The notes under the pieces are model-generated. The model had not been told where the DNA came from and made no database searches. It saw only the letters and a program-made list of their open reading frames with translations. The position numbers were made by a program, and so were the translations under genes. 22,971 nt of DNA from Beroe ovata. Lineage: Eukaryota; Ctenophora; Nuda; Beroida; Beroidae. Location: assembly GCA_946803715.1 (NCBI GenBank), contig CAMPET010000400.1, positions 1 to 22,971 on the forward strand, given 5' to 3'. Positions 1 to 20,549 of this stretch are shown here, one piece after another (position 1 is the stretch's first letter; every line of letters begins with the position of its first letter).

Positions 1-283
1 AGGGGAGGAGGACGTGAGTCGGACAGAGTTGAACGTCCAGTAAACCTGAAATAGATCGTGGTAAGGTTTAAAAACAAACAAAAACTTCATTTTGAGGGCG
101 ATATATTTTCCCAGAAAATTGATCCTCAATTTAAGATGTGTCTCACCTCCGGAGCTGGGATCCCCTCAACTTCACACGTCAATTGAGTGAAGGAGCCCTC
201 GTCGACTTCTTGGTTCCGTGGTGTCAAGGACGATATAAGTGGTGGTGCTACCAGCATAACCATAGCAGACGTCATGTTGACAC
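1..283 (-). CDS. Start of Ig16, truncated by the window edge
   Basis: Exons 147-283 (phase 1 to 0) and 1-45 (continues outside). The first completes the Ig15 G strand (SAMVMLVAPP), then begins a new domain with GSFTQLTCEVEGIPAPE and, across the splice, VYWTFNSVRL with the core Trp. The second Cys lies beyond position 1. One minisatellite monomer is embedded in the coding part (SLTPRNQ, about 220-235). Confidence 0.82.
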
Positions 284-3200
284 CTAGAGGCAGGAAAATG
301 GTGTCAATAAGATGAGTTCCCGTCACTAATGGTGTCAATAGCAGAAGTGGTGTCAGTGCTTGGAAACTCACCCTCAGAGTTAGTTCCAACACATGAGAAA
401 CATGGACCATCCTCCATTGTAACTTCACACATTGTCAACATGGAGAAGAACTCCCCGTTACGAATTTCAACCCTGCAACACATTGATTTTGAGATCTTGT
501 TCTCTTCTTAAGTTCCTCTGTGGTTATTTTAGTTTCTTAAATATCTCGTGGTGTCAAATGTGGTGTCACCCAAGGTATCACACGTGACACATGACTCACG
601 TGTCCATGTCATACCTGTCATCTGCTGTTGTTATTTGACCGTGGTCGTTCCACCAGGTGATATTGGGTTCAGGTCGGCCCTCAATCTCACAGACGAATGT
701 CAGACACTCTCCAACTCTTATCATGACATCTTCAATAGGACCGGTAACCAATGGTGAGCCTGAATCATGTCACGGTTGGAATATCTATAATTTGCCAACT
801 TGCAACTCGGTAATAACCAGAAATGCACATGTTTAAAAACTCACTATCTTTGCAGGTGATATGGGAGTTGCACGGCACAGTTTCGCTACTCTCGCCCACG
901 CAAACATTCCGGTCCTTGTTTTGACACACTCTCTCCCGGGTCTTGACACCACCGTCACACTCAGATGAGCACGGAGTGAACTCACTCCACTCCGTCCACC
1001 CTGACAGAAACAAAATGTGAAATTAGAGGTATCAGTTGCTAAATTCACAAGATAAATCAGCTACACGAAGATGTATTGATGTACGATCGATGTGTTTCAC
1101 TCCAGCTGGATGTGGACTGAGATCGGCATTTTGTCTCACCCAGAATTACAGTGACATCCATCTCCTGAGAGTCTTCCCCCGCAAAGTTATATCCAATACA
1201 CGTGTACTCTCCACTGTCAGATTCCGTCGCATTGGTGATCTGAACAGATACATGTGTCAAGGAAAATGACAGTCATGAGGTGGTGTCAACGATTTGAAAT
1301 TGCTCAATCATAGACATTAGACAGGTACTGTTTTCAAACCTTGAGGGTGAAGGTATTGTCTGAATTCAGAATGTGCACATTGTTACAGTTCTCCAGAGAC
1401 TCCCCATCCTTGAACCATTCAACGTGAAGTGGGAAACTTCCCGACATCTGAAAATAAATGAAAGTCGGTGTCAAGCTATGTTGTTAGGCAACCAAGAACA
1501 GATCTATAGTTGACCAAGAAGACGGGATGTCGATAAAAACAGCTGTCATGCGAATAGAAGCTAGTCGGTGTCCCAGTTCCAAATGAAATGGTGCCAATAT
1601 TCAGTGTCATGACTATTATATAACCTCGCACGTGAGAGTCAGTGTGTCTCCAGGTGAGTATGTCTCCTCATCGGAACCGTATGATTCCACCACTGGGGTC
1701 ACGGGACACGGCATAGTGGAACATGTCCTCGTCTGGGCAATGGGGGGGGTGAGAGTGAGAATCGTGTTTTAAAGTTGATTGAGAGATGAAAAACATGAAA
1801 GATGGAATTTGATGTCGTGATATACGTTGAGTGATGAGAAAGCAACGTAATCCTACGCCTACAATGGTAAGACTTATCAGATCACATGGATTACTGATGA
1901 GCTGGAGATGATGACTGACCTGTCGTCCAGATTGATCGTGACACATTCCAACGTTCATGTTCAGTGTATTGTAACACTTTTCATCTCTGTACTGCACGCC
2001 ATCACCACAGCTTACGTCGCATTCAGACCACTCACCATAATCACGCGGCACTACAAGAATTAGTTGTCGAACACAAGGAAATATTTCGAGCAGATGATAA
2101 GTAAGATCATCATTAATTCTGTTTGACAGACAGTATTTTCACCTTCCATATTGAGCTTGATGGTTTTTAGGTCATTACTGATGAAATTGGTAGCCTTGCA
2201 CGAGTATCGACCAGCATCCAGCTCAGTAAGATCAGAAATTGTGAGTGAAGTGAAGGAATCGTTGAGACGATTGATTTTGTATCTCTCACCATCTTCAAGA
2301 ACCTGTAAACAGACAAATTGACCAAAAAATTATAACCGTTCATCTGATGTACTTTTGCCAATGCAATGGAAGAACACGGCAATTCTGAAGAATTGGCTCC
2401 ATATCATTGGATTCACTTTGAATTTCAAGTTCAACTAAAACTCGTGATTAAAATTCACCTCGTTATTCAAAGTCCATGTTACATTGGGAGTTGGAGCACC
2501 GTTCACGTGACAAACCAATGTGATACTCGTTCCCTCCACCACACGCTCGTGTAACAGTATCTCACGAGGGAAGTCAGCTACAGCAGTACTGAAATCTGTA
2601 TCCTCCGGAGCAGAACTCTCGATAGAGAAGTGGACTAGGGACACTTTCACTTTCTCTGGAAGCGAGAGAAAATGTTAGATATCCTGAATTTGATTTCATG
2701 GGTGATGCTAAATGGTGTCAAGTGTTAAGATGCTAAATAGTGTCAAACAACTACATTTCTGAATTACCGAACACAGTGATGACACCCTCCTTCTTGTCAG
2801 CTCCTCTGCTATTGACAGCGACACAAGAGTATACACCGGTCACAGAGGTGTCCTCGACCATGAAGGAGAACGATATTGTCACCGTGTCTGAAGCGGTGTC
2901 AAAAAGTGGATTCTCATGGGATACTACTCAGCAACATGTCAAGGAAGGATGATGAATGTCAAGAAGTGGTTATGTCAAGAAGTGGTGTCAATAAGTTGTG
3001 TCAAGCAATAATGTCCGCAAGTGGTGTCAGCAAGTGGTGCCAAGAATTGATGCAAATAAGTGATGTCAGGCAGTATATTGTAAAGAAGTGGTGTCAAGCA
3101 ATAATGTCCGCCAGTGGTGTTAGCAAGTGGTGTCAAGCCTCACCGTCGCTCTCGTAGACCACATCAGAGGTGACCGGCTCATCGTCTTTCAGGATGTAAA

Positions 3201-6200
3201 TCTGAGGAGAGGGTCCTGCCGATGCTATACACGACACCTTCACTCGCTGTCCAATAAACACGGTCTGAGTTTCCGGTCCAGTGATAATCTCCGGTACTTG
3301 TTGACCTGATGGAGACGACTGATAATAGCGGTGGAATAAGCAGCGTTTAGCGGAAAATAAACCGGAGTTTTCGTCGATAAACAGCGGTAATTTGTACAAG
3401 TACAACTTGTTCAAAACTGGAGTTATCCAAAGCAAACCATGCCGAGAGACACGTATTCTTCACTAACTTCATCCTACCTCTCACACCAAGCGTGGCACTA
3501 GCACTGATAGTCTCATATCCATTCCGAGCGGTACACTTGTACAATCCAATCTGGTCACGTGACACTGGATCGATCACTAGATTGCCATCAGATGTCACAA
3601 GTGTGACGGCCGTCGTGAAAATCTGAATGAATTCAGCGTAAATATATTGATAAACCCTTCTGAATTCTGATTCCCTCCACAGCTTTTACCTCATTAGTTA
3701 TGACAACGAATCAGGCATATTACCTCTTCATCTTTGAGATACCAGGAAATCTCAGGAGTTGGTGAGCCAATAGCATTACACGACAGTGTCACACTGCCAC
3801 CAACGTTAGCAGTGGTGTCAACCGGTGTTACTGTGAACTCCAGCTTACCTGGTGAAGTGTCAACAGTCATCGCACTAGGATAGCTCTGAGCCCACCCTAC
3901 ATTGACACTGTGTACAATGTACATTGTACAACACAGGGAACATTATACAATGACAGCATGTACATTGTACAACACAGGGAACATTATACAATGACACCAT
4001 GTACAATTTACATAAAACATTGCACAAACCAGAGCATACATTACACATTGACACCATCACTCACCCCGAACTACGAGTTGGGCACTAGACTCTATCTTCT
4101 CCCGACCATTGCTTGCTTCGCACGTGTACGTGTGCCCACTATCCGCCGCGGTGGCGGGGGCGAATAGCAGACCACCCGTTGGCAGTGTCATGAGTCTGTC
4201 GGAGTCCGATGTGATGGGTGCCCCGTCCTGAGGGGTGTGTGTGTGTGTGTGTNGCATGTGCAGGCATTTCCCGACCGAGTTGGACCAAAAAATTTCTTGT
4301 GGGTGATTTTGAGGCTAGGGAGCAATGGATGAGCAGGGATTCGCATTGATTGGAGAAACTCGGGTTTTTTTGGTTCGCCCTAATGTACAATGTACATTGC
4401 ACAAACCAGAGCATACATTACACATTGACACCATGTACATTGTAAAAACCAGAGCATACATTACACATTGATACCATCACTCACCCCGAACCACTAGTTG
4501 GGCACTAGACTCTATCCTCTCCCGACCATTGCTTGCTTCGCACGTGTACGTGTGTCCACTATCCGCCGCGGTGGCGGGGGCGAATAGCAGACCACCCGTG
4601 GGCAGTGTCACGAGTCTGTCGGAGTCCAATGTGATGGGTGCCCCGTCCTGAGGGGTGTGTGTGTGTGGTTATGGGACGACGGTTCAGACGTCAGACCGGA
4701 TTCTACGATCATCTATCCTAGTTCAGATCCATGGACCATGATTCAAATCTCGATCCCGGAATTCTAAGATAATTGGAATGGAACGCTATATCATGATCTC
4801 TACTCAAGCCACTGCCCGTAATCCTCACCTTGTACCAGGTAATTGTGGGAAGGGGCAGGGACGTAGCACCGCACAACATCACGTGATTCTCCCCTGCTTC
4901 CACCACGGTGTCTTCGGGTTCCTCCACAAACTCCAACTTCTCTGTAAATTACACGACGTCATGATGAAAACATGACTATGTCACCTTGCCCAATCAAGTG
5001 CATGATTGTCATCGAGTGTTGCTCTGTGCTCAAGCTCTCATCGCATGTCGATATTTTAAAACGAGTGAATTTTAATAATTGATCAAGTTCAAAACTCACG
5101 GAGGATGAGGACTTGGAAATCTTGGTAATCTGTGCCGTACATGTTACTTGCCGTACACCGGTACCATTCAGCCATGCCCTCCTCAGCTTGGATGCGGATG
5201 ATGCTTGTTACCACGGAAACCTGCACATTATGCCATATATGGTATGATTGACGAACTATTCCCTCCCCCACCCGCCGAAATGTGACATATTCCATCACAA
5301 ACCTCCATGTCGGCTACATTCTCAGATCTGTAGAGTCCCCTGTAATCGACAGCAGGGAGATCGTCTCCACGGGGAATAATGGTCTGGGTGTTGGTCGGTG
5401 TGCCCCGTGCCTCGCATTCCATCTCAATGTCATCCCCGGGTTGGACATAGTACGTCTTGGGCGATGAGAGAATGGTCGGAGTTCTGCTATCTGGAGGAAA
5501 ATGGGTGTTTGAAGAGGCATCTTATTTTCACTTTTTGTATAGATGGTAGTTTACATCGGCATCACTAAGACACTTACTTATTCGGAGAGTGGTTATGTAG
5601 GCAGCATGACGAATATCATGAGTCTGCTCATCCTCCCTCCACCCGACATCTGTCCATCTGAGGAGTGTGTTCGTGGCGAAATCACGTGTTTCCTCGTCAT
5701 CTTCCATGGCAACTCTCCTCGGATATCCGATCATGGGACCAGGCACGCTGAAAAGTGTGTCGATTCCCACGCGAGAGAACTCCTGTAGTTTTCCTTCCTC
5801 TATGTCACTGATACTCAGAGCAAAGAGGATGTCCTCACTGCCATAGCTCAGTATGAGGTTCTCATCATGTGTTGTCATGGATACCATATTGGACAGGGGA
5901 CGAAGGAGGACAGGCGGAGTGGACGTGATGTTGTAGATACCTGGGCATGACAGAGGGTTACTCGGGCACTGATTGACAATCAAATTCCTCTCTCAGAATG
6001 ACATGTTTCTATGACAACATACCTCGCTTGTTGAGAGCTAGTACAGTCTTGTCGGGCAATGTCACCACAGACAATGCAGTTATCAGGCTAGGGTGACGGG
6101 TGGGATACGAGGTGAAGGTACGAGACACGAGTAGTGTGTCACTCGGGTCTGTGTAGTAAACAGTTCCTTCCCATGATACATGAAGAACCTGTAGAAAGAG

Positions 6201-9200
6201 AAATGGGGATACAGAACAACCCGCATAGTTAGCAATTTAATCCGCATAATGAGTAACTGATCCAGGGAATACGTCTTCCCAAACCTACCTTATTTCGAGG
6301 GGTGTGAATCTCTTCTCTCCCTTCTCCTATGCTATTCACTTTGAATCTCGCGATATCTCCCCCCATTTCCACCACATAGACCCAGCCGTCGCGTGACACT
6401 GCAGCACACTCCACCCCACTAACGGTGGGGATAGCACGCCATGAGGGCGCAGCTTGTCCCACACCTGAATCATCCACATACAACGTCCTGTCATACCCCA
6501 CTCCGTACACCGAGTCACCGTGGATACCAGCCCAGTGTAACATAGGACCGTATTCGGATAGACGACCAGTCCAGTTTCCATGGATACTCGGTTTTGTGAT
6601 CACGTGACCGGTCTTGCGCTCCTTAGCAACGATCGTGCTGTCCAGTAGGACTCCCACAGAGCTAATTTGTGACGGGGATGTATCCTCAGTCCATTCAGAC
6701 GCCCCTGTGTCCAGATTCCTGGTAAAGGGAGGGATTTTCCTAACAGTTTGTCAATATATAGGCCGAGTTTTTGAAACTTCTTAAGTTCTTAAAGCTCATT
6801 TTCCACGTACACGAGTTACTATATTGACCCGATAGAAAATTTTCGCCGGCGGAAAGGTATGTAAGTAGGAGAGCAGATGAAAGTTTTTATCATCACCATA
6901 TGACTTATTATGTGCTGTGTAATATGTGTATACAAAGTGAGGGTTGTCAGGCATTTATAGCGGCCTGCAGTTTCTGAGCTCAGGATAAAATGGAATATCA
7001 TATTGGAATGACGGGCGTAGTATAGTGTCAGAATAATATGTGTATAATATCTGTGTGTAAAAAGCATTCAAACGAATATGCCTATCATCGATAATAAGGT
7101 GGGAAGGAGGATTAGATTTTTCGAGAAATTCTACAGTTCTGAGAAAATTTAGTCTTTGAGAAGAAAAGAGGGAGAGAATAATTGCGAAAAAGTGATATTA
7201 CTCACAACATGTGGAAGAATTGTAACAGAAAAGTGTTTTCAAGTCATTCAGGTGTCAAAGGAAAACTTTGTTATGAAATTTTGGTGTCCTTACCTGTGCA
7301 GCATCTTGAAGGACACAACGTGAGATCCGAGGAGGACACCGTCCACCACAGCAATACTGTTCACACAGCACGAGTTGGGGAGGAGAGTGGGGTTGTCATG
7401 GTTACCACTCCTCGTGGTAACTGGTAGCGTGTACACGTGGTAATCACTCAGCACCAAGAACAGCGTCTGGGAATTATACGAATTTTGAGCGCGCTCGGAT
7501 TCCATGATGTCAAAAAGCCCCAGGTGGACAATCAAAAACTAAAAACTTAAAAAGAAGACGGGGATACCGCAATAACCGACAAGGACCTAACCTCCTCATA
7601 TACGGCAATATCTAGAACTCCGGCTGTGATGCCCACTGGAACAAAATCTTTCAAATCGGGGGACACGTAGGTCTTACCATCACCAAGCGTAGCAAGATAC
7701 TTGGGTTCTGAGAAAATGATTCCGGGATTAATTTCAATTTGTATGATTATTTCGATGATTCATGCCTCTGACAATTCTTTCTCTTACCGATAATTGCTTC
7801 TCTTACCGATAATTGAGAGGTTGACAGTGCGACTGGTGACACGGTCACGCCCATTAATCGCTGTCACCCTGTACCCTCCCTCGTGGTACGCTTGCACATC
7901 GAATATTTGCAGATGTCCATTTTCTTCACTGATACTGCAGTGCTTCCAGTCCTTGTCTACTGGGACAGCTGTACCATCCAACCTGCGAAATTACAATAAC
8001 ATTATCGTTAAAAGCAATTCAAACTACATTTGACCATTAGTTCATATTGCGAACAAGAATAACTTTGCGAAGGAGAACTCACTCAATCCTCTCCCAGATG
8101 TATCTCAGAGAAACACTACTCTCCACCTCAACTTCCATCTTGATATTTCCACCCAGATAGGTGATCTGTGACTCTGGGTGCTCCAGTATTCTCAGGGTAT
8201 CTAGGCGATTGTTCATTAGATGGTCTGAATGTAACAGAACCGTCCAAACTTTTTTATAATCACTATATCATATAGTCATCTTTAATTAGGGTTGTCAATT
8301 ACCGTAAACATTGACATCAACACTGTCGTGTGACATCACGCCATCAGTTTCAGCCTGACATCTGTAGTTGCCTTGATCCTCAAATCCAATGCTCGGAATT
8401 TCAAATTTCAGAGTCACCATGCCAACACTCTCCTGAGGGGAAAGCACGTCATTATGCACGTGACAAACACGTGATAACACGTTACCACAAAGTGTTGTCA
8501 GCTGTTCGTGGAATTCAATATGAACAATTTCCGGGGAATCGGTTGTTTTTGATCATAGTACTGCTCAACTTAGCAACATAGATTTTATAATCCCACTCTG
8601 TTATAGCCTTCGTGAATTTCCATGGTCATTGCAACATGTTATTGCATGCAGAGAGGGGAAAATAATATATGCAAACTTCCGGTACTTTTCACTCTCACAG
8701 CCTCGTACAAAACAAGTCTGAGACATAATAATAAAGTTGTGTACTACTCGGTGGAATTTGTTAAAGCTCTGCTGCAGGTGACAGGTCACATATTATAGTG
8801 TCAAAACATCGGGTGTAGGTCAGTTTGTGGAGAGCTGAAGGTGGAAGCCTTCAACATCGTCTATAACGCGTAGTACAGTGCTCGTAGATAGCAAAATAAT
8901 ATGTAGTCGTGAAAATCATTCAGCATCATTATGCTTTTGAGAGATGAGAAGAGTCACGAACCATTTTGTTGAATTGGACATCTCCCGGAATCACGTCCCG
9001 ATCATCGTGGGTAAGGCGTAGGACCGGCTTCTCCGATCCGGTATAGGTTACGTGACAGGTGGCAGTCACGTAAGATGCGGCGCTTATGTTGACAGATGAG
9101 GAGTAGGGGTTGTCATGGGAACTGACAGCAAGGTCTAACTTAACAACTGTTCCTGTAGGGATGAGTCAATGAGATTGATTACTGGACAATATTTTCTGTC

Positions 9201-12200: not shown

Positions 12201-15200
12201 GAAGTGGTGTCAAGGGAAGCAATGTCAGGGGATGTAGTGTCAGGGGAAGCGGTGTCAAGAAAAATGGTGTCAAGAAAAGTGGTGTCAGGGGTAGTGTGAA
12301 GTGAAGTGGTGTCAGGGGGAGTTGTGTCAAGATGGTTCCTACCTCCGACAGTGAGAGACATGGTTTTCTCAGCAGTCCCATCATCAGTCCTTACTGAGCA
12401 TGTGTAATGCCCTTCATGGCTAGAATCAACATATGTAATGTTGTGCGCAGCTATGCTCACAATCGAATCCGAGGTGAGATTCGTCACCAGTGTTTNATAG
12501 TGCAATTCCGGGAAGTAGGAGGAGTTGCGAAAGAAAAGCGAAACTTTGCAAATAAGATTAGCCACTAAAATAGCTACCAGAGGATAGCCACTAAAATAGC
12601 GCAAGTGATACTCACAACGTCTTCATTATCGATCATCTTGTCGTTCCTATACCATGTGATGTCAGGTTTGGGACTACCAGTTGCTATACACATCAGAGTA
12701 ACGTATTTGGAGTTAGGTAGTTCCACCGTGGAGAGCGTTTGAGTTAGGGGTCGCACTTTGAATACAGGAGCAGCTAGACGGGGTGAGAGTGGTGTCAAGA
12801 ACAGTGGTGTCAAGGGAAGTGGAGTCAAAGAAAAGTGGTGTCAAGAAAAGTGGTGTCAAGGGAAGTGGTGTCAAAGAAAAGTGGTGTCAAGGCAAACGGT
12901 GTCAGGGGATGTGGTGTCGGGGGAAGTGGTGTCAAGGGACGTGTTGTCAGGAGGAGTGGTGTCAAGGCACGTGGTGTCAGGGGGAGTGGTGTCAGGGGGA
13001 GTGGTGTCAAGATGTCTCCTACCTCCAACAGTGAGAGACATGGTTTTCACAGCAGTCCCATCATCAGTCCTTACAGAGCATGTGTAATGCCCTTCATGGC
13101 TAGAATCAACATTTGTAATGTTGTGGGCGGCTACGCTCACAATCGAATCCGAGGTGAGATTCGTCACCAGTGTTTCCGTCCCTGTGGGGAGGGTACAGAA
13201 TGAGCATCACCGTGTCAGTACTCATCGTCAAACAAATCAAAACAAATACAATCCCAGCCGCAGGGGTAATACTAGTCCCGAACACCATACAGACTCAGAG
13301 GGTGGGTGGGGGCAATTGTCAGTTGTCACACTACGGGGGGCAATAGTATAACACTTCACAAAACCCACCAGTTATGTCGACATGGAGAATGGTGATGGAA
13401 ACGGGTGGAATTCCCCGGACAACACACTGCACTGAGAAGAGCTGTTCTCCGGCCGCAATCAGCGAGTCAGGGGTGAAGTATAGGATGTCTGGGGACAAAT
13501 CATCTGAAAATCGTGGGTTCAATAGTATGAGACATGAGTCGAAAATCAAAGCATGATAATGTCACGAGGGTTGAAGAGGGTTTACATTTATACGGTGGTG
13601 CTCAAACCTTCCGAAGATGTCGGTAGGATGAAATTGGACGAGAATAAGATCAGATAAAGCCAAGGCATTAGCGAGATGGATTAAAGTTTTTCTCACATTT
13701 CCCGAACTACAAAATCCACGATAATAATTATCAGTAAATTGAGATAAAATGCTCGAAGAATGATATAAGTAGATTACAAAGTAGACTATTTCTAGCACTC
13801 ACAAGGAGCAACAATTTCACACGATATTGCGATATACTTAGAATAATATAAAACTTGGTTCCTCCTGCTGCTACAGATATGTATAACAAGACACAGTAAA
13901 GCAGTGAAACGCATATAATATGCAGCTCGCAAACTTCGGGTCCCATGCAGGTTGGTAACCACTCAGATCTTGCCAGAGAAGAACAATATATGAATACAAG
14001 ATTCTGAGGAGTTCTGAGTAGTGACATGGAAACTTAAGAAGTGATAAGACATTAAATTAGTGAATCAAGAAGCATTTATGCGGCCGATATATTGAATCTG
14101 AATTTCATAACATTTCAAGTGCTTGCTTACTATACAGAAATTTTCACAGATGTTAGATATGCAGAAATGCACAAAGCTTCAAAATTTGATGGAATTTTAT
14201 AATTTCGTGAATTGTACATGAATTCGAGATTAAGTTATTTGATTCAAGCGTGTGAATTTATGTGAAATAAGTTTTCCAAGTGCACATATGTCATAATATC
14301 GGGTATCAAAACCGAATATTACAGATCGAAAAAATTGAATAAACTAAAATATTTGACGCGTGAAATTTGATTATCAAGCTGGTTAGAAAAAATTCTTTAT
14401 CGAAGAGTTCAAAATAGAATATTTTGAATACTTCCATGCAGCATCCTGTGCTTCTCATCGATTTTCAGCCAAGTATATAAACGGTAAACTTCATTACAAC
14501 TTTACTAATGGAAGTATAGTGTCTGAATGCTACTTAGACAGTACATGAATAGTATCATGATGGCGATATCTGATACAAACACCATTATATGAGCAGAATA
14601 CATGTATCCCATATAATATATATGGTGTGCTTGTAGGGTCATAAGTAGGACTATAGCTATTAGCACAATGTCAGTGCATGTAGCATGATGGACAATCTCC
14701 AGCTCCAATGATACAGAGCGGAATGGATATATATGGTCACCTTAAGCATAGGCAAGTGGGTACTTGGTATGGCAAAGATTGAATTCTTTCTCTACTTTTG
14801 CTGATACTGTTAACTGAGTATAGATAGTTCCTATACTGAGTACAATAGATAGTCTCTTTAAAGTATTAAGTATAGAGATGTCCTATATAGGTATCGGATT
14901 GATATAGGAATCTGGAATACTTCCTAACCTGCCTCAGTGTCATCTCCAACATAATCTTCCCAATAGAGAACTCCCCCCTCAGGAGTAGAGCACGAGTCCT
15001 CCACCTTCCATCCACTGCGGTAAAATGTATCCTGGATGAAGAGTGGCTCCATTTCCCGCCCCGACACGACCACATGGGACTGGACGGGCGAGTAGGCGAT
15101 GGTAACGGGGGTTATAGGGAGACTAGTGTCCTGTAGAGGGGATGCAATTGTCAAGATGAAGATGGAGATAATTTGTCAAAACTGTATAACATGACATTCT

Positions 15201-18200
15201 ATAGATGTATTGATGTATGTATAGAGGTATGTATAGAGGCATGTATATTGTATAACAAGTATGTATAGATGTATGACGTATGTATAACATGTATGTCACA
15301 CAGAAACATTCACGGAGAGAATGCCCTCTCCCTCTCTCCTGTCACTTTAACTACCATGACTCACCTCTTGCCACGTGGCGGTAGAATCTCTCCACTCCAG
15401 GTGGAACAAACCACCCTCCTCCGTTACCACCCAGATCTTGTAATCGTCCACAGCTATACTCGTGATGGCGCCATTGGCAAATCCCGGGATCGTATCCAAC
15501 TTTGTAACCATGGTAACCAATCCCGACTTGGTTACGTCGCTCTGATCATCAGTGACGTCTTCATCACTGATTGTGACGGTTGAAAATGTGTTGTCGTCGG
15601 TAACAGCTAGATACATCGCGATAGAGGAGTTGAGATATTCTTCATTCTGCAGCATCTCAGCACCTGGGGGTATCACCAATTAATAACAAGCAATTAGCTA
15701 ATTGTCTATGACTCAATTATAAACGACCCAAGTTATCATGAATCACACGTGATCATGTCCGGCTCGTACCATCATGAAAAAGAGCGGTGATTGCCTGGAA
15801 ACAGCATGTGTCTAGTGGCATCCACTCCTCGGCTAGAGCTCTCTTCACCAGTAGCTCGCCACTGCTTGTATCCAGTGCTCTGATCAGTTTATCATCATGA
15901 CGGTTAAGTCGGATAGTATGATCGATAGATGCATCCAGAAGTAGGAATAATTCGAATAACGCATGAAAATAGAATTTGTCCCTCACATTAGCCTGTTCTT
16001 TGTATCGAGAGTCTGCAAGGAATACGTAGCTGTATCACTGCTTTCAGGGTAGTTGATTGTAGTCCACTGTCTGCCCATGCAAATGCTCAGCGAACCAGAA
16101 ACCATTGCCAAATACGTTGATTCTGAGATGCAGATGATACATCGATACATATTGCGATCCGGGAATTTGGAATCAGATATAACAATGGATTGGACATCAG
16201 ATAATAAGTCCTGATAATCGATCTATCATAGAAGTCGACGTTTAAACAATTCTAAATTCAATTCCATAATTCTGATTCCTTTAGGATTAAATTCATGTCA
16301 TACCTAACTTAATGACAGATGATGAGCCTGATATACGATCAAAGTGTGTTGATAGCTGACAGCTGATAACATCAAGATGCTCAACTTGGATTTGTGGCGT
16401 TGTGTCATTCTGAAATCAAGTAGAGACCAATTTGAAGTTAAAATCTTGTAATGGTCTTGTAATCATAATCCTGGTAAGCTCGCGAGAATTCGATACTCAT
16501 CTTATTACCTGTAAATCTGGGAGCTTGATCCCATTCCTGGACCATTCGATCAGAACACCATCTACAAAATTTGGCACACATTCAAAATATGCCATGGAAT
16601 CATCTCCAAAGGAGCCTCTGGACAAGAAGTATCGTTCACGAACGGGCCTTTCGAATTCCAGGGGCTCTGAAATGGAAATCTCGTCATATTCGCAAATGAG
16701 AAATATGTCACAACCATGAAATATATAGTGGCGAGTGCCCTAAACTCATTACAAACTGCCAAGCTTTCCCGAGTTACCAGTTCAATTCCTAGTGTTGCAA
16801 ATCAAACCGACATGTCACACATGGCAGCGGCAGAACTAACCATAAACAGTGATATCAGCCAGGGCTGAATCAGACCCGGCTGGGTTGACAGAGAAGCACT
16901 GGAGCTGTGTTGAGGATGTAATGTTACTGAGGATGTAAACTGTGGACTCGGTTACGTGCTCTGTGTTCACTTCCGTATACACAGCCTGAAGAAGGGTTCA
17001 CATTAATCATTGAATAACGCTTGACAGATCACAATAGCGCGTTACCATGGTAACACGCGTGGCCTTATGCTAACGCGCGTGACCCCAGTACCAACCTGTG
17101 CCGGGATTGGTTGTATGACGGTAGTAGGTGTGGGGATGCCAAACACTCGGCAAGTCAGCGTGACTGTACTACCGGAGGGAACGACCAGACTACTCGCCGA
17201 GAACGACATGATCTCAGCTCGGGATTGGGCTGAAATAGATATGATTCGTTAAACGATGCCGAATTCATTTCACACATCGAAACATTTCCCATGCGGGACA
17301 TAATATTGCACAAGCGATCAATATTTTACTTTTACTCACGCATGTCCATGATATTGATCGGAGAGATTGAGATGAGGCTACAGCTAGACCCTCTGACATA
17401 AGAATCAGTCGTCACGGAAACAATCTCGTTGGAAACTGTTAAACCTGCACGGGAAGAGAGTGGATTAGCACACGTGTACTGTGAACTATAACACGTGTCC
17501 ATCACGTTACGTGTCTATCATGGTCATCATGGCGCGCTTACCGAGAATGTCGCCGGAGTAGGAAGTGATGGAGTTAAGTTTAGCATTCACTGCGATGTTT
17601 TCCTTCCACGTTGATCGTACATCAGTGGTAGACTTTTTCTTTATCTGAGTATCAAACAATAAATTTTGAGAAAGAATGCCACATGAATTTTGAAGAATTC
17701 ATATCGAAGATTATCGCCATTGCAGAGCATGATATGATATATTGCACGTGTTCAGTGTGCACGCTGTACCTTATTATCCTGGGTGAGTGCTATGAGATAG
17801 CCCTCGTTGTCGAATGTAATACTCCGGAAATTGCCATTTCCCGGTGTTCTGATCTGAGGAAAATGAGGTATTGAGGTACCATAACGCTGGATCAAAATGT
17901 TACATACGACTTATTGGAAATGTTGTGTGAGTGGGGATATGATATTGGAAATGAAGGTTACAAAATTCACATCTCGGACACCAGTCTTAGGGTAGGTATA
18001 GAATTCCGTCTTTCTCTACCTTTTTCCATGGACCCTTCTTCATCTTAGTCCAGAAGGTTGAGAAACTGTCTACAGCGTAGAGCTTCTCATCTGGTCCCAT
18101 TGCAACATCAACCAACTTCAGACTGGAAAGAAAACAATTAAATTTTTCAAAAAATTTACATTTTTCAGGACAATTACCTAGGTACATTTTTCAATACATG

Positions 18201-20048
18201 AAGTTCATAATTCGAATCCGTGACGCCATTTTGTCGATTCGACTTTCAAGGGTCTCATCAAAATGAACTCTCCATACCTATTGGGGAGCTCATCATCCTT
18301 TACAAAGGTTGTACTGAAGAGCTGACCACTCCAAAGCCGTCCTTCATCATCGGCCACGAATATTTCAGATGAGTCGGACGACGCTGTCACTGCCTGAAGG
18401 GGATTGAATTTGAGATTCAGTTTTGAGTTTTCGTTTGAAACTGATGGAAATGGTTGGAGTGAGAAGAATCCTTCCATTTCCAACATAGCACACAGAATGC
18501 ATCAGCCATCAAGTCAAATTTGGAACACTGTACCTTGAAATTGGCCGAATATGGAGCTGGAATTTCATGACAAGAGCTGTCCAAGCTATCTTTTATCACA
18601 ACTCGACCGTCTGATCCAATACCAATGAACTTGGGAACTGAAACAACAATAACCATGGAAAAGCTTGGCAAATATCAGGATCATTAATTCCTCATCTTAA
18701 AGTTTACAAATGGGCTGCTTCAATTGAGACCCACCCTTCACGTTGACATGAGCTGTTTCCATGATCCTTCCATTCCGGTTTTCAGCTACACACGTGTAGG
18801 AGCCCGAGTCCTCGATCTTAGCTTGTTCAATAACCAACTGTCCGTCCTCGAATAGGATCCCCTCCGCTGGTAAATCCATTATCTTGTTATCTGAAGTTTG
18901 TTATCGCTTCAATACACTTGTTTAACACTTGTTTCTCAAGAAGATTGAAAAACCCAATTCATGAACTGGGGTCACATATCAGGATTCACATGCCAATGTA
19001 ACCATGGTAACCACCATACCGTGTAACCAGTAGGTAGAAATGAGGGGTGGTGAGCTCTCCACAGCACAATGGAGTGTCAGAGTGTGTCCTGCATAGGTTT
19101 CCGAGTCCTTGGGGCGTTCCGTTAAGCGAAGATAAAACTCTGAGAGAAATGGCAATGATGTTGGAGTGAGCTTAGAAGTTAGAGTTATGCAGTTTCAGGG
19201 TATATTCTGGAAGTTGGAAGAAGGATCTTACCTTGCTCAGGATCAGGCAATCCAGTGGGTAGAGAGGGATAAACCTCACTCACTGAGCGGAAACTGGGCT
19301 GTGACGTGATTTCATCTCGAGATGGTGTCCCAGTTGATCCTGCAAAGAAGTGGTGTCAGGAGAAGTGTAGTTAGTGTCAACGTCTCGTGGCAATGCAAAA
19401 TGTTGTCAATACGTTGCGTGACTTTGTGTCAAAGGAAATTGTGTCAAGTATGGTTTTGATGTCAACAAAATCATCCTATTTTACCGCCCGCGCTCCCACT
19501 CCCACCCCCACTCCCAGTTCCCCGTCTCACCCACCTTCCAGTACGAGACCCGCATGACTGGGTGGTGGACTAGACCTCTCACTAGTATACACTATCACTG
19601 GGGATGACGTCACTGAGCCGGCACTGCGAGTCGGCAGCCACGAATCACCGAGCGGCATTATCTCCCACGGAATTCTGGAGAAATCAAACTCTTCCCCCTC
19701 CTTCTCTGGCGGCAGGGAATGCTCATTCCCGTCCTGACAGTGCACCACAGACAGCTCAACAGTGGCACGTGTCACTTCTCCCTCCGTTCCCGTGACAATG
19801 TAACTATACACGCCACTGTCACTCAAGTGCAGATCCGTGATAACAAGAGTTCCGTTGCTTAGCAACGCGTGACGCGCCGATCCCTCCTTGATATTGGTAC
19901 TTTCAACCGCCGGGTCGCTAGGATACCCGTCAAAGTCCGGGGTTATGGTGACGTCATGACCGAGACACCGTGTTATCAGGTCCGGTAGAGTGGTGCGACT
20001 CGTCCGGGGATCGAGGGCGGAAAGGACGCTCAAGACCACCCAAAACAT
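1..20048 (-). CDS. Giant secreted Ig / beta-propeller / TSP1 mosaic protein, 3' end outside the window
   Basis: This is one multi-exon gene read from 20048 leftwards. Each exon was defined by an AG acceptor, a GT donor and an uninterrupted frame in the phase left by the previous exon. Counting one copy of each allelic duplication, 56 exons give 8871 nt, exactly 2957 codons. The predicted N-terminus is a signal peptide. The order is Ig1-Ig2-propeller1, Ig3-Ig4-propeller2, Ig5-Ig6-propeller3, Ig7-Ig8-propeller4, Ig9 to Ig13, TSP1, Ig14, TSP1, Ig15, partial Ig16. Ig and TSP1 modules are typical of extracellular adhesion and matrix proteins. The propeller regions resemble tectonin repeats, which often bind glycans or proteins. 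Binding partners are unknown and no transmembrane segment is seen. I know no family with this exact order, so no symbol is given. Exon edges are inferred without transcripts; a few donors (for example GTTTGT at 9346 and GTTCGT at 8961) are weak. Confidence 0.85.
372..759 (-). CDS. Ig15 module with extra cysteines (two exons)
   Basis: Exons 615-759 and 372-472, phases 1-2-1. The first Cys is in LTFVCEIEGRPEPNITWW, with the core Trp, and the second in MEDGPCFSCVGTNSEG. Additional cysteines (VGECL, TMCEV, GPC) could form a second disulfide. The final G strand must come from the next exon, so the phase-1 intron lies inside the domain edge. Confidence 0.8.
845..1000 (-). CDS. TSP1 repeat 2 (single symmetric exon)
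   Basis: One exon of 156 nt, phase 1 to 1. WTEWSEFTPCSSECDGG carries the W-x-x-W motif (the usual C-mannosylation site) and the C-S-x-x-C core; RERVC, NVC, VPC and ITC complete six cysteines. It ends with a short KD linker into Ig15. Confidence 0.93.
1140..1702 (-). CDS. Ig14 module (three exons)
   Basis: The rest of exon 1625-1732, then 1340-1447 and 1140-1239; inner introns are phase 0 and the exit is phase 1. The first Cys is in SPGDTLTLTCE, the core Trp in LHVEWFKDGES and the second Cys in ATESDSGEYTCIGYNFAGED. An extra Cys lies in LENCNN. Both inner donors (GTTATA and GTTTGA) are weak, but the joined frame gives a complete domain. Confidence 0.8.
1703..2050 (-). CDS. TSP1 repeat 1 (split by an intron)
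   Basis: Exon 1920-2050 (phase 1 to 0) plus the first ten codons of exon 1625-1732. YGEWSECDVSCGDGVQYR shows the W-x-x-W-type start reduced to one Trp, with the C-S-x-x-C-G core as CDVSCG. The remaining cysteines are in EKC, GMC and TRTCSTMPCP, giving six in all, as in a normal thrombospondin type-1 repeat. The second exon continues without a break into Ig14, unlike TSP1 repeat 2, which has its own symmetric exon. Confidence 0.88.
2143..2655 (-). CDS. Ig13 module (two exons)
   Basis: Exons 2459-2655 and 2143-2302, phases 1-0-1. The first exon begins with about 25 extra residues rich in Ser, Glu and Asp before the domain, perhaps a hinge. The first Cys is in GTSITLVCHVNGAPTPNVTW, which ends at the core Trp, and the second in ELDAGRYSCKATNFISND. 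This is the fifth Ig of the run and directly precedes the first TSP1. Confidence 0.87.
2768..3305 (-). CDS. Ig12 module (two exons)
   Basis: Exons 3144-3305 and 2768-2887, all junctions phase 1. The first Cys is in GQRVKVSCIASAGPSPQIYI and the second in SVTGVYSCVAVNSRGAD, with the G strand EGVITVF. The core Trp is replaced by Ile/Tyr. The acceptor CTCCATCAG at 3305 is the one that gives phase 1. The inner intron carries degenerate minisatellite monomers. Confidence 0.84.
2888..3143. repeat. Degenerate AAGTGGTGTCAA minisatellite
   Basis: Many diverged monomers of the GGTGTCAA family fill the Ig12 inner intron. They include a longer internal duplication: a block with GTGTCAAGCAATAATGTCCG appears near 2998 and again near 3092. 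Confidence 0.8.
3478..3848 (-). CDS. Ig11 module (two exons)
   Basis: Exons 3724-3848 and 3478-3622, phases 1-0-1. The first Cys is in GGSVTLSCNAIGSPTPEISW, which ends at the core Trp, and the second in RDQIGLYKCTARNGYET. The acceptor at 3848 (CACCAG) was chosen because it gives phase 1 and a normal strand A (KLEFTV), like Ig10. Strand A' contains PVDTTAN, encoded by one monomer of the intronic minisatellite family. Confidence 0.86.
3919..4045. repeat. 41-bp tandem repeat, two clean copies plus degenerate remnants
   Basis: A unit starting GTACATTGTACAACACAGGG and ending GACAGCAT or GACACCAT occurs at 3919-3959 and 3960-4000, followed by degenerate units. A related 43-bp pair lies at about 4391-4476 in the other allele. 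It lies in the Ig10-Ig11 intron. Confidence 0.8.
4065..4227 (-). other. Redundant allelic copy of the Ig10 second exon
   Basis: The length is identical (163 nt) to 4485-4647, with 7 substitutions that change three residues. It starts in phase 0 and ends in phase 1, so it can replace 4485-4647 but cannot follow it. It is followed on the plus strand by a GT run that ends in the N at 4253. The intron flanks are shared too. It is best read as the other haplotype. Confidence 0.82.
4236..4252. repeat. Short GT microsatellite abutting an N
   Basis: A GT run ends at the N at 4253. The allelic counterpart at about 4655-4668 continues into unique intron sequence, which shows where the left contig stops. 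Confidence 0.85.
4254..4383. other. Unexplained 130-bp segment after the N gap
   Basis: This segment sits between the N at 4253 and the start of the second allelic copy. It does not match the corresponding part of the first copy. It could be an allelic insertion or a contig-end artefact. No coding potential consistent with the gene is seen. Confidence 0.4.
4485..4941 (-). CDS. Ig10 module (two exons)
   Basis: Exons 4829-4941 and 4485-4647, phases 1-0-1. Visible are GENHVMLCGATSLPLPTITW with the first Cys, the P-x-P turn and the core Trp, then ATAADSGHTYTCEASNGRE with D-x-G and the second Cys, and the G strand AQLVVRG. A second copy of the 163-nt second exon lies at 4065-4227 beyond an N. Confidence 0.87.
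5100..5490 (-). CDS. Ig9 module (two exons)
   Basis: Exons 5303-5490 and 5100-5220, phases 1-0-1. The first Cys is in GDDIEMECEARGTPTNT and the second in GMAEWYRCTASNMYGTD, with the G strand FQVLIL. The core Trp is not obvious (TQTIIPRGD). This starts the run of five consecutive Ig domains after the fourth propeller. Confidence 0.82.
5578..7707 (-). CDS. Beta-propeller-like region 4, the longest (about 416 aa)
   Basis: Exons 7592-7707, 7294-7466, 6289-6718, 6023-6188 and 5578-5940, phases 1-0-2-0-1-1. Repeats include KYLATLGDGKTYVSPDL, LDIAVYEETLFLVLSDYHVY (across a splice), ASEWTEDTSPSQISSVGVLL, MLHWAGIHGDSVYGVGYDRT, PSWRAIPTVSGVECAAVSRD and GWVYVVEMGGDIARFKV. This is a strong tectonin-like pattern. 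The acceptor at 7466 (TTCCCAG) was preferred over one near 7543 because it joins a continuous strand and keeps phase 0. The intron 6719-7293 (575 bp) holds no exon I can support. Confidence 0.72.
7781..7815. repeat. 19-bp direct repeat duplicating a splice donor
   Basis: CTCTTACCGATAATTG occurs at 7781-7796 and 7800-7815. On the minus strand each copy reads CAATTATCG|GTAAGAG, so the donor of the Ig8 exon is present twice. Use of the distal one adds 19 nt and shifts the frame. Confidence 0.85.
7807..8224 (-). CDS. Ig8 module lacking both canonical cysteines
   Basis: Exons 8083-8224 and 7807-7982, phases 1-2-1. The fold signature is kept: strand B (NIKMEVEVESS), the C-strand Trp (LRYIWERIE) and HEGGYRVTAINGRDRVTS with the F-strand Tyr and the N-G turn. 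Both disulfide positions are lost (Val/Glu in strand B, Val in strand F). One unpaired Cys lies mid-domain (WKHCSIS). The donor at 7806 sits in a 19-bp tandem duplication that offers a second, frame-shifting donor. Confidence 0.75.
8303..9152 (-). CDS. Ig7 module (two exons)
   Basis: Exons 8962-9152 and 8303-8432, phases 1-0-1, separated by a 529-bp intron with no other exon seen. The first Cys is in ASYVTATCHVTYTGSEKP and the second in FEDQGNYRCQAETDG, with the G strand DSVDVNVY. The core Trp is replaced by Leu (VLRLTHDD). The donor at 8961 (GTTCGT) is weak but leaves the phase the next exon needs. Confidence 0.75.
9289..9328. repeat. 16-bp direct repeat, two copies
   Basis: GCCAGTTTAGGTACTC is followed immediately by a second copy, just inside the intron next to the last exon of propeller 3. 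It is probably a simple slippage duplication. Confidence 0.75.
9347..11393 (-). CDS. Beta-propeller-like region 3 (about 363 aa)
   Basis: Seven exons: 11292-11393, 11113-11186, 10806-10919, 10403-10629, 10006-10162, 9630-9833 and 9347-9557. Phases run 1-1-0-0-2-0-0-1 and all are open. It has the clearest tectonin-like repeats in the gene: SIFYVGRDNELYTAP, VVSGVVYGVTPSNWLVKW, NGDRWSRVRIPTVDQ followed by MTSIAVSVSGAVYGV and DGYLYARNKMSNNWHR, QVWILQDGDLFSVHHD, and HHAGLLGVTRDGDVIVKF. The donor of 10403-10629 (AG|GTGAGA) was preferred over an earlier in-frame GT because only it leaves phase 2, which the next exon needs. A 16-bp direct repeat lies just past the last donor. Confidence 0.72.
11533..12009 (-). 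CDS. Ig6 module (two exons)
   Basis: Exons 11852-12009 and 11533-11650, phases 1-0-1. Visible are KYVTLMCVATGSPKPDITWY with the first Cys, the S-P-K-P turn and the core Trp, then TREYTGRYSCVASNDLGS with the second Cys and the N-x-x-G turn. It is a clear I-set Ig and the last one before propeller 3. The first exon also exists as a near-identical copy at 12616-12773. Confidence 0.85.
11769..11838. repeat. 27-bp tandem repeat, about 2.5 copies
   Basis: The unit starts TAGCCACTAAAATAGC and ends ACCAGAGGA. It repeats in the intron between the two Ig6 exons. The allelic copy at about 12558-12600 has one unit fewer. Confidence 0.8.
12028..12335. repeat. GTGGTGTCAAGRRAA minisatellite, left allele
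   Basis: About 20 imperfect monomers of 15-16 bp with core GGTGTCAA. It fills the intron between the Ig5 and Ig6 exons. Because the period is mainly a multiple of three and lacks stops, it produces spurious open frames on both strands (for example LDTTSLDTT-like strings on the minus strand). Confidence 0.9.
12343..12773 (-). other. Redundant allelic exons (copy of Ig5 second half and Ig6 first half) around an N gap
   Basis: Exon 12616-12773 copies 11852-12009 with about 4 substitutions in 158 nt. Exon 12343-12495 copies 13023-13181 with three residue changes, but is cut at the N at 12496, losing its acceptor. In the order given, 12616-12773 ends in phase 0 while 12343-12495 is in phase 1, so they cannot be joined in frame. 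Dropping both leaves Ig5 and Ig6 intact and in frame. The simplest reading is that both haplotypes were placed in tandem at an assembly gap. Confidence 0.8.
12788..13014. repeat. GTGGTGTCAAGRRAA minisatellite, right allele
   Basis: About 15 monomers of the same 15-bp family as 12028-12335, at the equivalent intron position in the second copy of the duplicated unit. It ends a few bases from the donor of the Ig5 exon at 13022. Confidence 0.9.
13023..13503 (-). CDS. Ig5 module (two exons)
   Basis: Exons 13369-13503 and 13023-13181, bounded and split by phase-1 introns. The first Cys is in LFSVQCVVRGIPPVS and the second in SSHEGHYTCSVRTDDGTA, with the G strand KTMSLTVG. The core Trp is replaced (ITILHVD). 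The second exon is the complete allele of a pair: a truncated near-identical copy lies at 12343-12495. Confidence 0.82.
13504..14928 (-). other. Longest intron of the giant gene (about 1.4 kb), no exon seen
   Basis: The flanking exons match in phase (1 to 1). The interval is AT-rich, lacks the TTGACACCAC minisatellite seen in other introns, and offers no open segment with good splice sites in the required phase. Two hydrophobic open frames on the minus strand (about 14505-14708 and 13731-14027) have low-complexity, intron-like composition and no domain signature. I see nothing functional here. Confidence 0.5.
14929..16012 (-). CDS. Beta-propeller-like region 2 (about 248 aa)
   Basis: Exons 15770-16012, 15365-15663 and 14929-15130, phases 1-1-0-1, all open. 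Blade-like segments include IRLNRHDDKLIRAL followed by EEWMPLDTCC, FQAITALFHDG, and AITSIAVDDYKIWVV followed by GGLFHLEWRDSTATWQEV. The alternation of a hydrophobic strand, a D/G turn and a terminal W is the tectonin-like pattern. The first exon contains a very hydrophobic stretch near its start (FELFLLLDASI), which probably forms an inner strand; it is too short for a membrane helix. The acceptor at 16012 was chosen because it keeps phase 1 and the exon open over 81 codons. Confidence 0.62.
16304..16666 (-). CDS. Ig4 module, diverged (two exons)
   Basis: Exons 16509-16666 and 16304-16409, phases 1-0-1. The first half is clear: a strand-A segment (EFERPVRERYF), then SMAYFECVPNF with the first Cys and VLIEWSRNGIKLP with the core Trp. 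The second half is weak: the only Cys is in HLDVISCQLSTHF and the D-x-G-x-Y motif is absent. The Ig call rests on the first half, the position and the exon phases. Confidence 0.65.
16841..17229 (-). CDS. Ig3 module (two exons)
   Basis: Exons 17096-17229 and 16841-16985, outer introns phase 1 and inner intron phase 0. The first Cys is in GSTVTLTCRVFGIPTP, the usual B strand followed by the G-x-P-x-P turn. The second Cys is in SSTQLQCFSVNPAGSDS, followed by an N-x-x-G turn and the G strand ALADITVY. The C-strand Trp is missing, and the usual Tyr two before the second Cys is replaced, so this is a diverged Ig domain. Confidence 0.78.
17340..18637 (-). CDS. Beta-propeller-like region 1 (tectonin-like, about 205 aa)
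   Basis: Six exons: 18534-18637, 18278-18393, 18020-18122, 17770-17853, 17542-17644 and 17340-17444. Phases run 1-0-2-0-0-1-1 and all frames stay open. The repeating pattern is a short hydrophobic strand, then 'dG.lyv', then a W-containing turn. Examples are PKFIGIGSDGRVVIK, EIFVADDEGRLWSGQ, VDVAMGPDEKLYAVDSFS followed by GPWKK, and SITFDNEGYLIAL. This spacing fits tectonin or TECPR-type propeller blades of about 40-50 residues. The length suggests four to five blades. The tectonin label is pattern-based; another propeller class is possible. The segment lies between Ig2 and Ig3 with phase-1 introns at both ends. Confidence 0.65.
18735..19139 (-). CDS. Ig2 module (two exons)
   Basis: Exons 19020-19139 and 18735-18890, bounded by phase-1 introns and split by a phase-1 intron just after the C-strand tryptophan. 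Visible hallmarks are LTLHCAVE with the first Cys, YWLHD with the core Trp, then KIEDSGSYTCVAEN with the second Cys and the D-x-G-x-Y motif, ending AHVNVK. It is a textbook I-set Ig domain and completes the first Ig pair ahead of propeller 1. Confidence 0.88.
19232..20048 (-). CDS. Signal peptide, Ig1 (no canonical cysteine pair) and Ser/Pro/Glu-rich linker
   Basis: Exons 19535-20048 (514 nt) and 19232-19339. The ATG at 20048 is followed by a short hydrophobic run (MFWVVLSVLSAL), read as a signal peptide. An in-frame TGA lies four codons upstream with no acceptor in between, so this is the likely start. The Ig-like region ends in LTITDL-type sequence (TLVITDLHLSDSGVYSYIV) and keeps the D-x-G-x-Y motif. 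The second cysteine is replaced by Tyr (YSYIV, not YTCIV) and the first by Pro (VTITPDF). A polar linker of about 100 residues follows, rich in Ser, Pro and Glu, spanning the rest of exon 1 and all of exon 2. The donor after 19535 was chosen because only phase 1 keeps exon 2 open. Confidence 0.75.
19335..19450. repeat. Scattered minisatellite monomers
   Basis: Several degenerate AAGTGGTGTCAG or GTGTCAA monomers lie in the intron between the first two exons of the giant gene, the same family as the larger arrays further left. Isolated monomers also occur near 300-360, 548-560, 1278-1290, 2710-2750 and 20090-20125. Confidence 0.6.
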
Positions 20049-20504
20049 GCGTCATGTGCTGCAGTGGATCACACGGGAAATCAAGACGTGGTGTCACGAG
20101 AGCGGATATCAGCGGTGTCAACGTTGGAGTCAATGTAGTTTGTTACAACACTAACTCTATGAGGGAGGTCATGGTGTCAAAAGAGAGACTTCAAAAGTTG
20201 TTCAGCAAAAAGCAAGAAGAAAAGAAATCTTCCAATGATAATGAAATGATAATCATAAATTTAAGACTGAAGCCAAACAAAAATCAAACAAAAACTAAAA
20301 AAGCCATAACCTGCTACGGAGCCTGCTAGGGCGTGAATTATCACGCATAATATATGAATCACGCACTACATATCACGCATCACATTTATGCACTATGATG
20401 ACCTATAGCACGAAATGCGGAGTGTGTTTGTGTGTGTGTGTTTGTGTTTGTGTGTGTGTGNACACACTATTAGATTATCCGGTGTGTGTGTGTGTGTGTG
20501 TGTT

Positions 20505-20549
<45 letters not shown>

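Follow-up and report, generated by a model that had tools for sequence, protein, structure and literature searches.

Immunoglobulin (Ig), thrombospondin type 1 (TSP1) and β-propeller modules are each common in proteins. Hemicentins have an N-terminal VWA domain, late TSP1 modules, EGFs and a G2F barrel, and are not known to contain propellers. Propellers of the tectonin/tachylectin type include lectins, which are small and mostly stand-alone proteins, and many recognition proteins contain Ig domains. LRPs are built of propeller-EGF repeats and not of Ig pairs, while semaphorins are extracellular proteins with the order sema propeller-PSI-Ig, that is, one propeller and one Ig. ROS1/Sevenless is a receptor kinase with FNIII domains instead of Ig and with YWTD propellers, and it is not known to have TSP1 modules or an array of the kind described below. 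Its ectodomain, with nine FNIII domains and three YWTD propellers, is the nearest published design (PMC11743138). A single exon of Aphrocallistes vastus encodes a protein of 49,014 aa (PMC10282587); hence giant proteins are known in sponges.

The locus studied here lies in a window of 22,971 bases, the whole stretch of DNA analysed (positions 1-22971 of C399, a contig of 45,112 bases; GC 44%), and the genome searched comprises 77.8 Mb in 534 contigs. We consider it reasonably probable that a single gene encoding a giant adhesion or matrix protein of the extracellular space (~12,400 aa or more) has its 5' quarter in the window, and that this protein bears a binding head of four propellers; the function is proposed from the domains it would carry. 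If real, the architecture would be a test case for the construction of giant adhesion proteins.

The gene was modelled by dynamic programming on splice signals and codon usage, with hand-chosen starting segments and window-trained parameters; GT-AG introns and matching phases are built into this model and are not a result. The program's output of 63 exons on the minus strand was curated by hand, by removal of three weak exons (one 1.4 kb intron), correction of three boundaries and removal of three exons in repeated blocks. An 87-exon version was over-spliced and was replaced. The curated predicted model has 57 exons and 8871 nt, encodes 2957 aa, is free of stops from window position 20048 to 1, and is preceded by an in-frame TGA two codons upstream of the ATG at 20048. 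Its order is Ig1, linker, Ig2, P1, Ig3, Ig4, P2, Ig5, Ig6, P3, Ig7, Ig8, P4, Ig9-13, TSP1, Ig14, TSP1, Ig15 and a cut Ig16, where P1 to P4 denote propeller-like regions; in short, (Ig-Ig-P) x4, Ig x5 and TSP1-Ig-TSP1-Ig-Ig, and then off the contig end. An earlier note on this DNA had read the same order, (Ig-Ig-propeller) x4, Ig x5, TSP1/Ig, from 56 exons, and the model reproduces it at the same place. The Pfam scan of the joined exons that the note had proposed bears out the Ig and TSP1 modules, with 12 I-set/14 Ig_3 stretches and two TSP1 in the 2957 aa. With codon usage derived from C176, the contig on which the gene appears to continue, the chosen frame was the best of six in 21 of 22 propeller-region exons (P1 6/6, P2 4/4, P3 6/7, P4 5/5) and in 28 of the 35 others, and one of the 56 window introns scored above 0; as parameters trained on the window had been used to find the exons of C176, the test is not entirely independent.

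All features are on the minus strand, and the Ig assignments derive from the model and Pfam. Exon 1 (19535-20048) contains the ATG, a short hydrophobic start (MFWVVLSVLSALDP), Ig1 and the start of the linker, and is followed by the linker exon and Ig2 (three exons, 18735-19339). P1 (17340-18637; six exons, four to five blades by eye) precedes Ig3 and Ig4 (four exons, 16304-17229), and P2 (14929-16122; four exons) precedes Ig5 (two exons, 13023-13503) and Ig6 (11533-12773), whose exons 12773-12616 and 11650-11533 have a repeated block between them. P3 (9347-11393; seven exons, ~7 blades by eye) is followed by Ig7 and Ig8 (four exons, 7807-9152) and by P4 (5578-7707; five exons, ~8 blades by eye). 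Ig9 to Ig13 occupy ten exons at 2143-5490, with block 3958-4247 omitted. The first TSP1 (1625-2050) takes exon 2050-1920 and the start of exon 1732-1625, with a PF00090 match at 1929-2039; Ig14 is at 1140-1732, the second TSP1 at 845-1000 (PF00090 match at 861-992, E 1.6e-7), and Ig15 with the first part of Ig16 at 1-759, where the gene leaves the contig and, by the alignment of C399 with C176, continues on the latter. The P regions are unequal in size, at 206, 250, 358 and 417 aa from P1 to P4. In each of the four Ig pairs (18735-20048, 16304-17229, 11533-13503 and 7807-9152) the first Ig lacks Trp and the second has it. Module duplication is not supported, as sequence scores did not group the odd-numbered and the even-numbered Igs (13 of 35 splits were as good).

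Long Ig runs and TSP1 modules are shared with hemicentin-1 and hemicentin-2, and hemicentins lead the results of a full-length homologue search, in which 189 of 7983 proteins scored reached E<=1e-3. By name, the best 120 of these 189 were mostly hemicentins, titin-like proteins, obscurin, IGSF10, MXRA5, perlecan and other Ig proteins of that sort, with some unnamed entries, and in none of the 120 did the best single local alignment extend over more than 30% of the query. Unlike hemicentin, the model opens with Ig1, and no VWA was among the best 25 of 29 Pfam families (the rest being weaker than E 0.04). Hemicentin-type G2F and EGFs were absent from the last 273 aa modelled, which may stop short of the C-terminus, and an exon-by-exon genome search for G2F gave no match in a search in which the control match was also lacking. 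The likeness to tectonin, tachylectin-2 and fish egg lectin (PF14517; PDB 5fsb, 5fsc, 4ruq), which are among the natural lectins matched, consists in blades of ~40 aa and the pattern SIAV..G.VYGV..DG.LY..W; the difference is that the P regions score below the family cut-off and are embedded in a giant Ig protein. With ROS1/Sevenless the locus shares β-sandwich domains and several propellers in one polypeptide (three in ROS1), and with LRP5/6 and other LRPs the repetition of propellers within a single surface protein, entries for LRP2, LRP4 and LRP6 being among the best 50 Foldseek rows for an exon of P4. None of the ROS1/LRP features (YWTD, FNIII, EGF) was among the Pfam families listed, and the modelled part has no membrane span. 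The fourfold alternation of Ig pair and propeller thus appears unmatched by any known protein family in the searches made, and the earlier note's statement that it knew of none holds for the proteins and literature searched: in open PMC literature we found no paper joining tectonin with Ig/TSP1 domains or with Porifera, and none on a sponge (homoscleromorph) Ig-thrombospondin protein. For a hemicentin of Porifera with thrombospondin and Ig modules that literature offered three papers, all on sea anemones, and for a giant protein with β-propeller and Ig domains one paper, on lipocone domains. At E<=10, neither P4 (5084 candidates, proteins of ~1630-5170 aa) nor P3+P4 (7987 candidates, ~650-2060 aa) had a homologue; these searches need exact 5-residue words and length windows, and therefore a 12,000-aa orthologue would be missed.

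The P regions are likely to be β-propellers, and their type would be tectonin/tachylectin-like at best, which is the nearest named kind and lies below the cut-off. Against Pfam, P1 matched PF14517 Tachylectin at E 1.1e-4 and 22.5 bits (cut-off 29.8; E 0.004 in the whole protein), and P2 matched PQQ_2 (E 1.5e-3) and AvrE_T3Es (E 3.6e-3; 5.9e-4 in the whole protein) below cut-off; P3 gave Kelch_6 only, at E 0.22, P4 gave nothing, and no family was above cut-off for any P region. When the region sequences were compared with PDB sequences, P3 found designed Pizza propellers at E 9e-4, with no single stretch passing alone, while phmmer returned nothing for P4, a best E of 0.13 for P1 and a single match at E 0.73 for P2. 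With the tectonin pattern as a guide, we cut by eye 21 blades of ~40 aa, 20 of which entered a hand alignment and 13, the better-looking ones, a profile. At E<=10 this 13-blade profile matched 91 PDB sequences, among them tectonin 2 (E 8.8e-4); among the best 60 of the 91, the first 37 are what we take to be propellers, many of them designed. Two of these 37 had a stretch passing on its own, and the first non-propeller appeared at E 0.78. A column-permuted control of the profile had no matches, its alignment being slightly looser (mean column identity 22% vs 28%).

In a leave-one-out blade test on the hand alignment, P2 and P3 scored 15.6 and 19.8 bits, with none of 500 shuffles as high in either case, and the Ig parts of the protein reached at most 4.0 bits. 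P1 passed narrowly (7.6 bits, 0/500 shuffles, best shuffle 7.4 bits) and P4 failed (4.5 bits, 9/500 shuffles). With a MAFFT blade alignment, a poor one, shuffles equalled or exceeded the real score in 0/200 cases for P1, 1/200 for P2, 0/200 for P3 and 3/200 for P4. For P4, an alignment-free fold of its 143-aa exon (6717-6289) had low confidence (pLDDT 49), and Foldseek returned 1565 matches at E<=10 and none below 1e-3; 49 of the best 50 of these 1565 rows are, we presume, known propeller proteins, 9ya3_J being unplaced. P3 and P4 have in common a 50-aa block (hhalign E 1.3e-5 in one comparison), and a CC motif within this block is present in P2 as well. The earlier description of the propellers as tectonin-like survives as the nearest named type, below the family cut-off; the propeller check by Pfam that it had proposed came out in a mixed way, with Tachylectin in P1 and PQQ_2 in P2, yet all below cut-off and none in P4. 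A search with the propellers in the genome that carries them yielded 27 matches at E<=1, which among the candidates scored fell only in this gene and in a piece of contig C37 considered below. An exon-by-exon genome search with Tachylectin found nothing; P1 itself was also missed, and the result is therefore no sign of absence elsewhere.

The window appears to be the N-terminal (5') part, about a quarter, of one giant predicted gene product. C399:1-3628 aligns at 92% with C176:6107-2473, an overlap of 14 exons, and C176 is the other allele of the window gene's 3' part. Beyond the window the gene runs on for ~42 kb on C176, with 19 more TSP1, more Ig (including a run at 15-19.5 kb) and then 30 units of a 119-aa domain plus Ig. 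Along C176 the coding score climbs steadily and without a break between 6 and 48 kb (to 3246) and then flattens (3359 at 57 kb). After hand correction of three mis-spliced TSP1 exons on C176, the joined predicted model has 12,403 aa in 171 exons (57 + 114); it is a composite of two alleles in which some small exons are doubtful, and it ends at C176:48034, the 12,403 aa excluding the gene's 3' end. Within C176:48035-51000 there is an open exon-like stretch, 50416-50638, splicing into which is weakly supported. The earlier claim of one giant polypeptide in the window is supported as to giant size and a single open reading, but the window does not hold the whole protein, which continues past base 1.

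Pfam scans of C176 covered three pieces: 1656 aa gave 15 TSP1 and 9 I-set, 273 aa gave four TSP1, and three of the 30 array units gave three I-set. TSP1 stretches total 21 in the pieces scanned (2 in the window, 15 and 4). In the array at C176:19606-46858 each of the 30 units consists of the 119-aa domain and an Ig, encoded by one exon pair (~450 + 200 nt). Copies of the domain have a mean pairwise identity of 38% (range 16-64%), and 28 of 30 are free of Cys, the remaining two having one Cys. A genome search with one unit hit 30 places, all within C176:19.6-46.6 kb (30 candidates scored). Outside the Ig parts, Pfam gave nothing above cut-off for the domain in the 3/30 units scanned, and the PDB gave no match better than E 0.18. 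If real, the domain could be the source of a possible new β-domain family.

Purifying selection acts where the alleles could be compared, namely in P4 and in the Ig/TSP1 part; the comparison covers two alleles, and P1-P3 are without a second allele here. Over window 1-3622, the C176 allele has 610 codons with no stops and no exon gaps, and the introns contain 119 gap columns. Mismatches number 52 in 1830 exon columns and 131 in 1742 intron columns (7.5%), and pS is 0.089 and pN 0.011 (pN/pS 0.12). Splice dinucleotides are retained at 26 of 27 testable sites (14/14 acceptors, 12/13 donors), the sole altered one being the donor after exon 759-600, which is AT. In the P4 area, a copy of window 5200-8257 on C37 has 591 codons with nine synonymous and two amino-acid changes and no exon gaps. 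This piece of 3.06 kb has an N at its start, no mismatch over window 5200-7017, allele-like sequence beyond, and then an inverted repeat, features that speak against a second gene. It is taken as an allele fragment or a mis-join, and it may be a segmental duplication. The sequence adjoining this allele-like piece (C37:367294-370354) carries the same ORFs on both strands and thus forms an inverted repeat of some length, which might be a mobile element.

The protein is probably secreted, judging from its short hydrophobic start (residues 2-13, mean KD 1.88), the lack of a membrane span in the modelled part (no 19-aa window above KD 1.8 in 12,403 aa), 127 N-glycosylation motifs in the joined model, and its Ig and TSP1 content; a membrane anchor is possible in any C-terminal part beyond the model. 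We propose that the four N-terminal propellers, spaced by Ig pairs, would serve as a multivalent head that probably binds glycans or glycoproteins and whose propeller faces could hold several ligands at once. The TSP1 modules might bind matrix molecules. The Ig/TSP1 part and the 30 units of new domain plus Ig would extend as a very long fibre into the matrix or between cells, and the long array would fix the protein's reach. By likeness to propeller lectins and TSP1 matrix proteins, such a head on a long fibre is the most likely role of the four propellers. A bolder version, which we hold as speculation with perhaps a minor share of the probability, is a new giant animal adhesion class, with four lectin-like propellers set apart by Ig pairs on a fibre made of ~60 Ig (a figure based in part on exon pattern), 21 TSP1 and 30 gene-private domains; in its lineage it would serve tissue adhesion or the species-specific aggregation of cells.

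Other readings of the locus overlap with each other, and the weights given to them and to our main reading do not sum to one. A wrong joining of two or more genes that lie side by side, one for the (Ig-Ig-P) x4 part, one for the Ig/TSP1 part and one for the array, seems improbable to us. The gene finder was made to continue throughout the region, and the passage beyond base 1 depends on the allele overlap, but that overlap spans 14 exons, a stop-free and usable splice path exists at all junctions, and the coding score is unbroken from 6 to 48 kb. We are similarly doubtful that the P regions have some other β fold, a view that draws on the weak sequence support for P4 and P1, the absence of a family above cut-off and the unconvincing phmmer results of P1, P2 and P4 against the PDB. 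The blade profile with its empty permuted control, the Pizza propellers found with P3, the Tachylectin match in P1 and the Foldseek result for the P4 exon all speak for propellers instead.

As to function, the earlier note had suggested adhesion or self/non-self recognition; an allorecognition or immune receptor with polymorphic recognition surfaces on its propellers and Igs would fit the lectin role of tectonin/tachylectin propellers, the Ig domains of recognition proteins and the high allelic divergence (7.5% intron mismatches). The differences between the alleles are mainly silent, in the pN/pS of 0.12 as in the nine silent against two amino-acid changes near P4 (two alleles, not P1-P3), which weakens this idea for the parts compared; with no propeller paralogue among the genome candidates scored, the C37 piece aside, we regard such a receptor as unlikely. 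Somewhat more weight, yet clearly that of a minority view, goes to a structural matrix protein of the hemicentin kind, in which the P regions would be mere spacers without a binding role. Consistent with it are the Ig and TSP1 modules, the extreme length, the purifying selection and the place of hemicentins at the top of the homologue list, whereas the VWA start is missing, the modelled part shows none of hemicentin's C-terminal domains, and to use four propellers as mere spacers would be costly. An adhesion or matrix protein with a propeller binding head is hence the reading we prefer.

Two stretches of Ig exons in the window occur twice: 3958-4247 and 4390-4667, beside a single N at 4253, and 11703-12495 and 12497-13175, at the N at 12496. 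A repeat search and self-BLAST gave identities of 93-96% in ungapped blocks and 82-89% in longer gapped BLAST pieces that include minisatellite. At N 12496 one copy stops and the other starts, as with overlapping contig ends set end to end, and the blocks are probably such overlaps, that is, assembly artefacts and not domains; the adjoining single Ns speak against genuine domains. The exons in the repeated blocks code for half Ig domains, and one copy was therefore omitted from the model, which in the second case is 11703-12495, the probable artefactual copy of 12497-13175. Allele overlaps in an assembly are thus able to make false tandem domains and to conceal three quarters of a gene. A minisatellite of the GTGGTGTCAAG type, with a 15-16 bp unit, fills introns at window 11992-13012 and 2700-3140 and occurs in scattered single copies. 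Upstream of the gene, a GT microsatellite at 20401-20546 contains a single N at 20461, perhaps another contig join.
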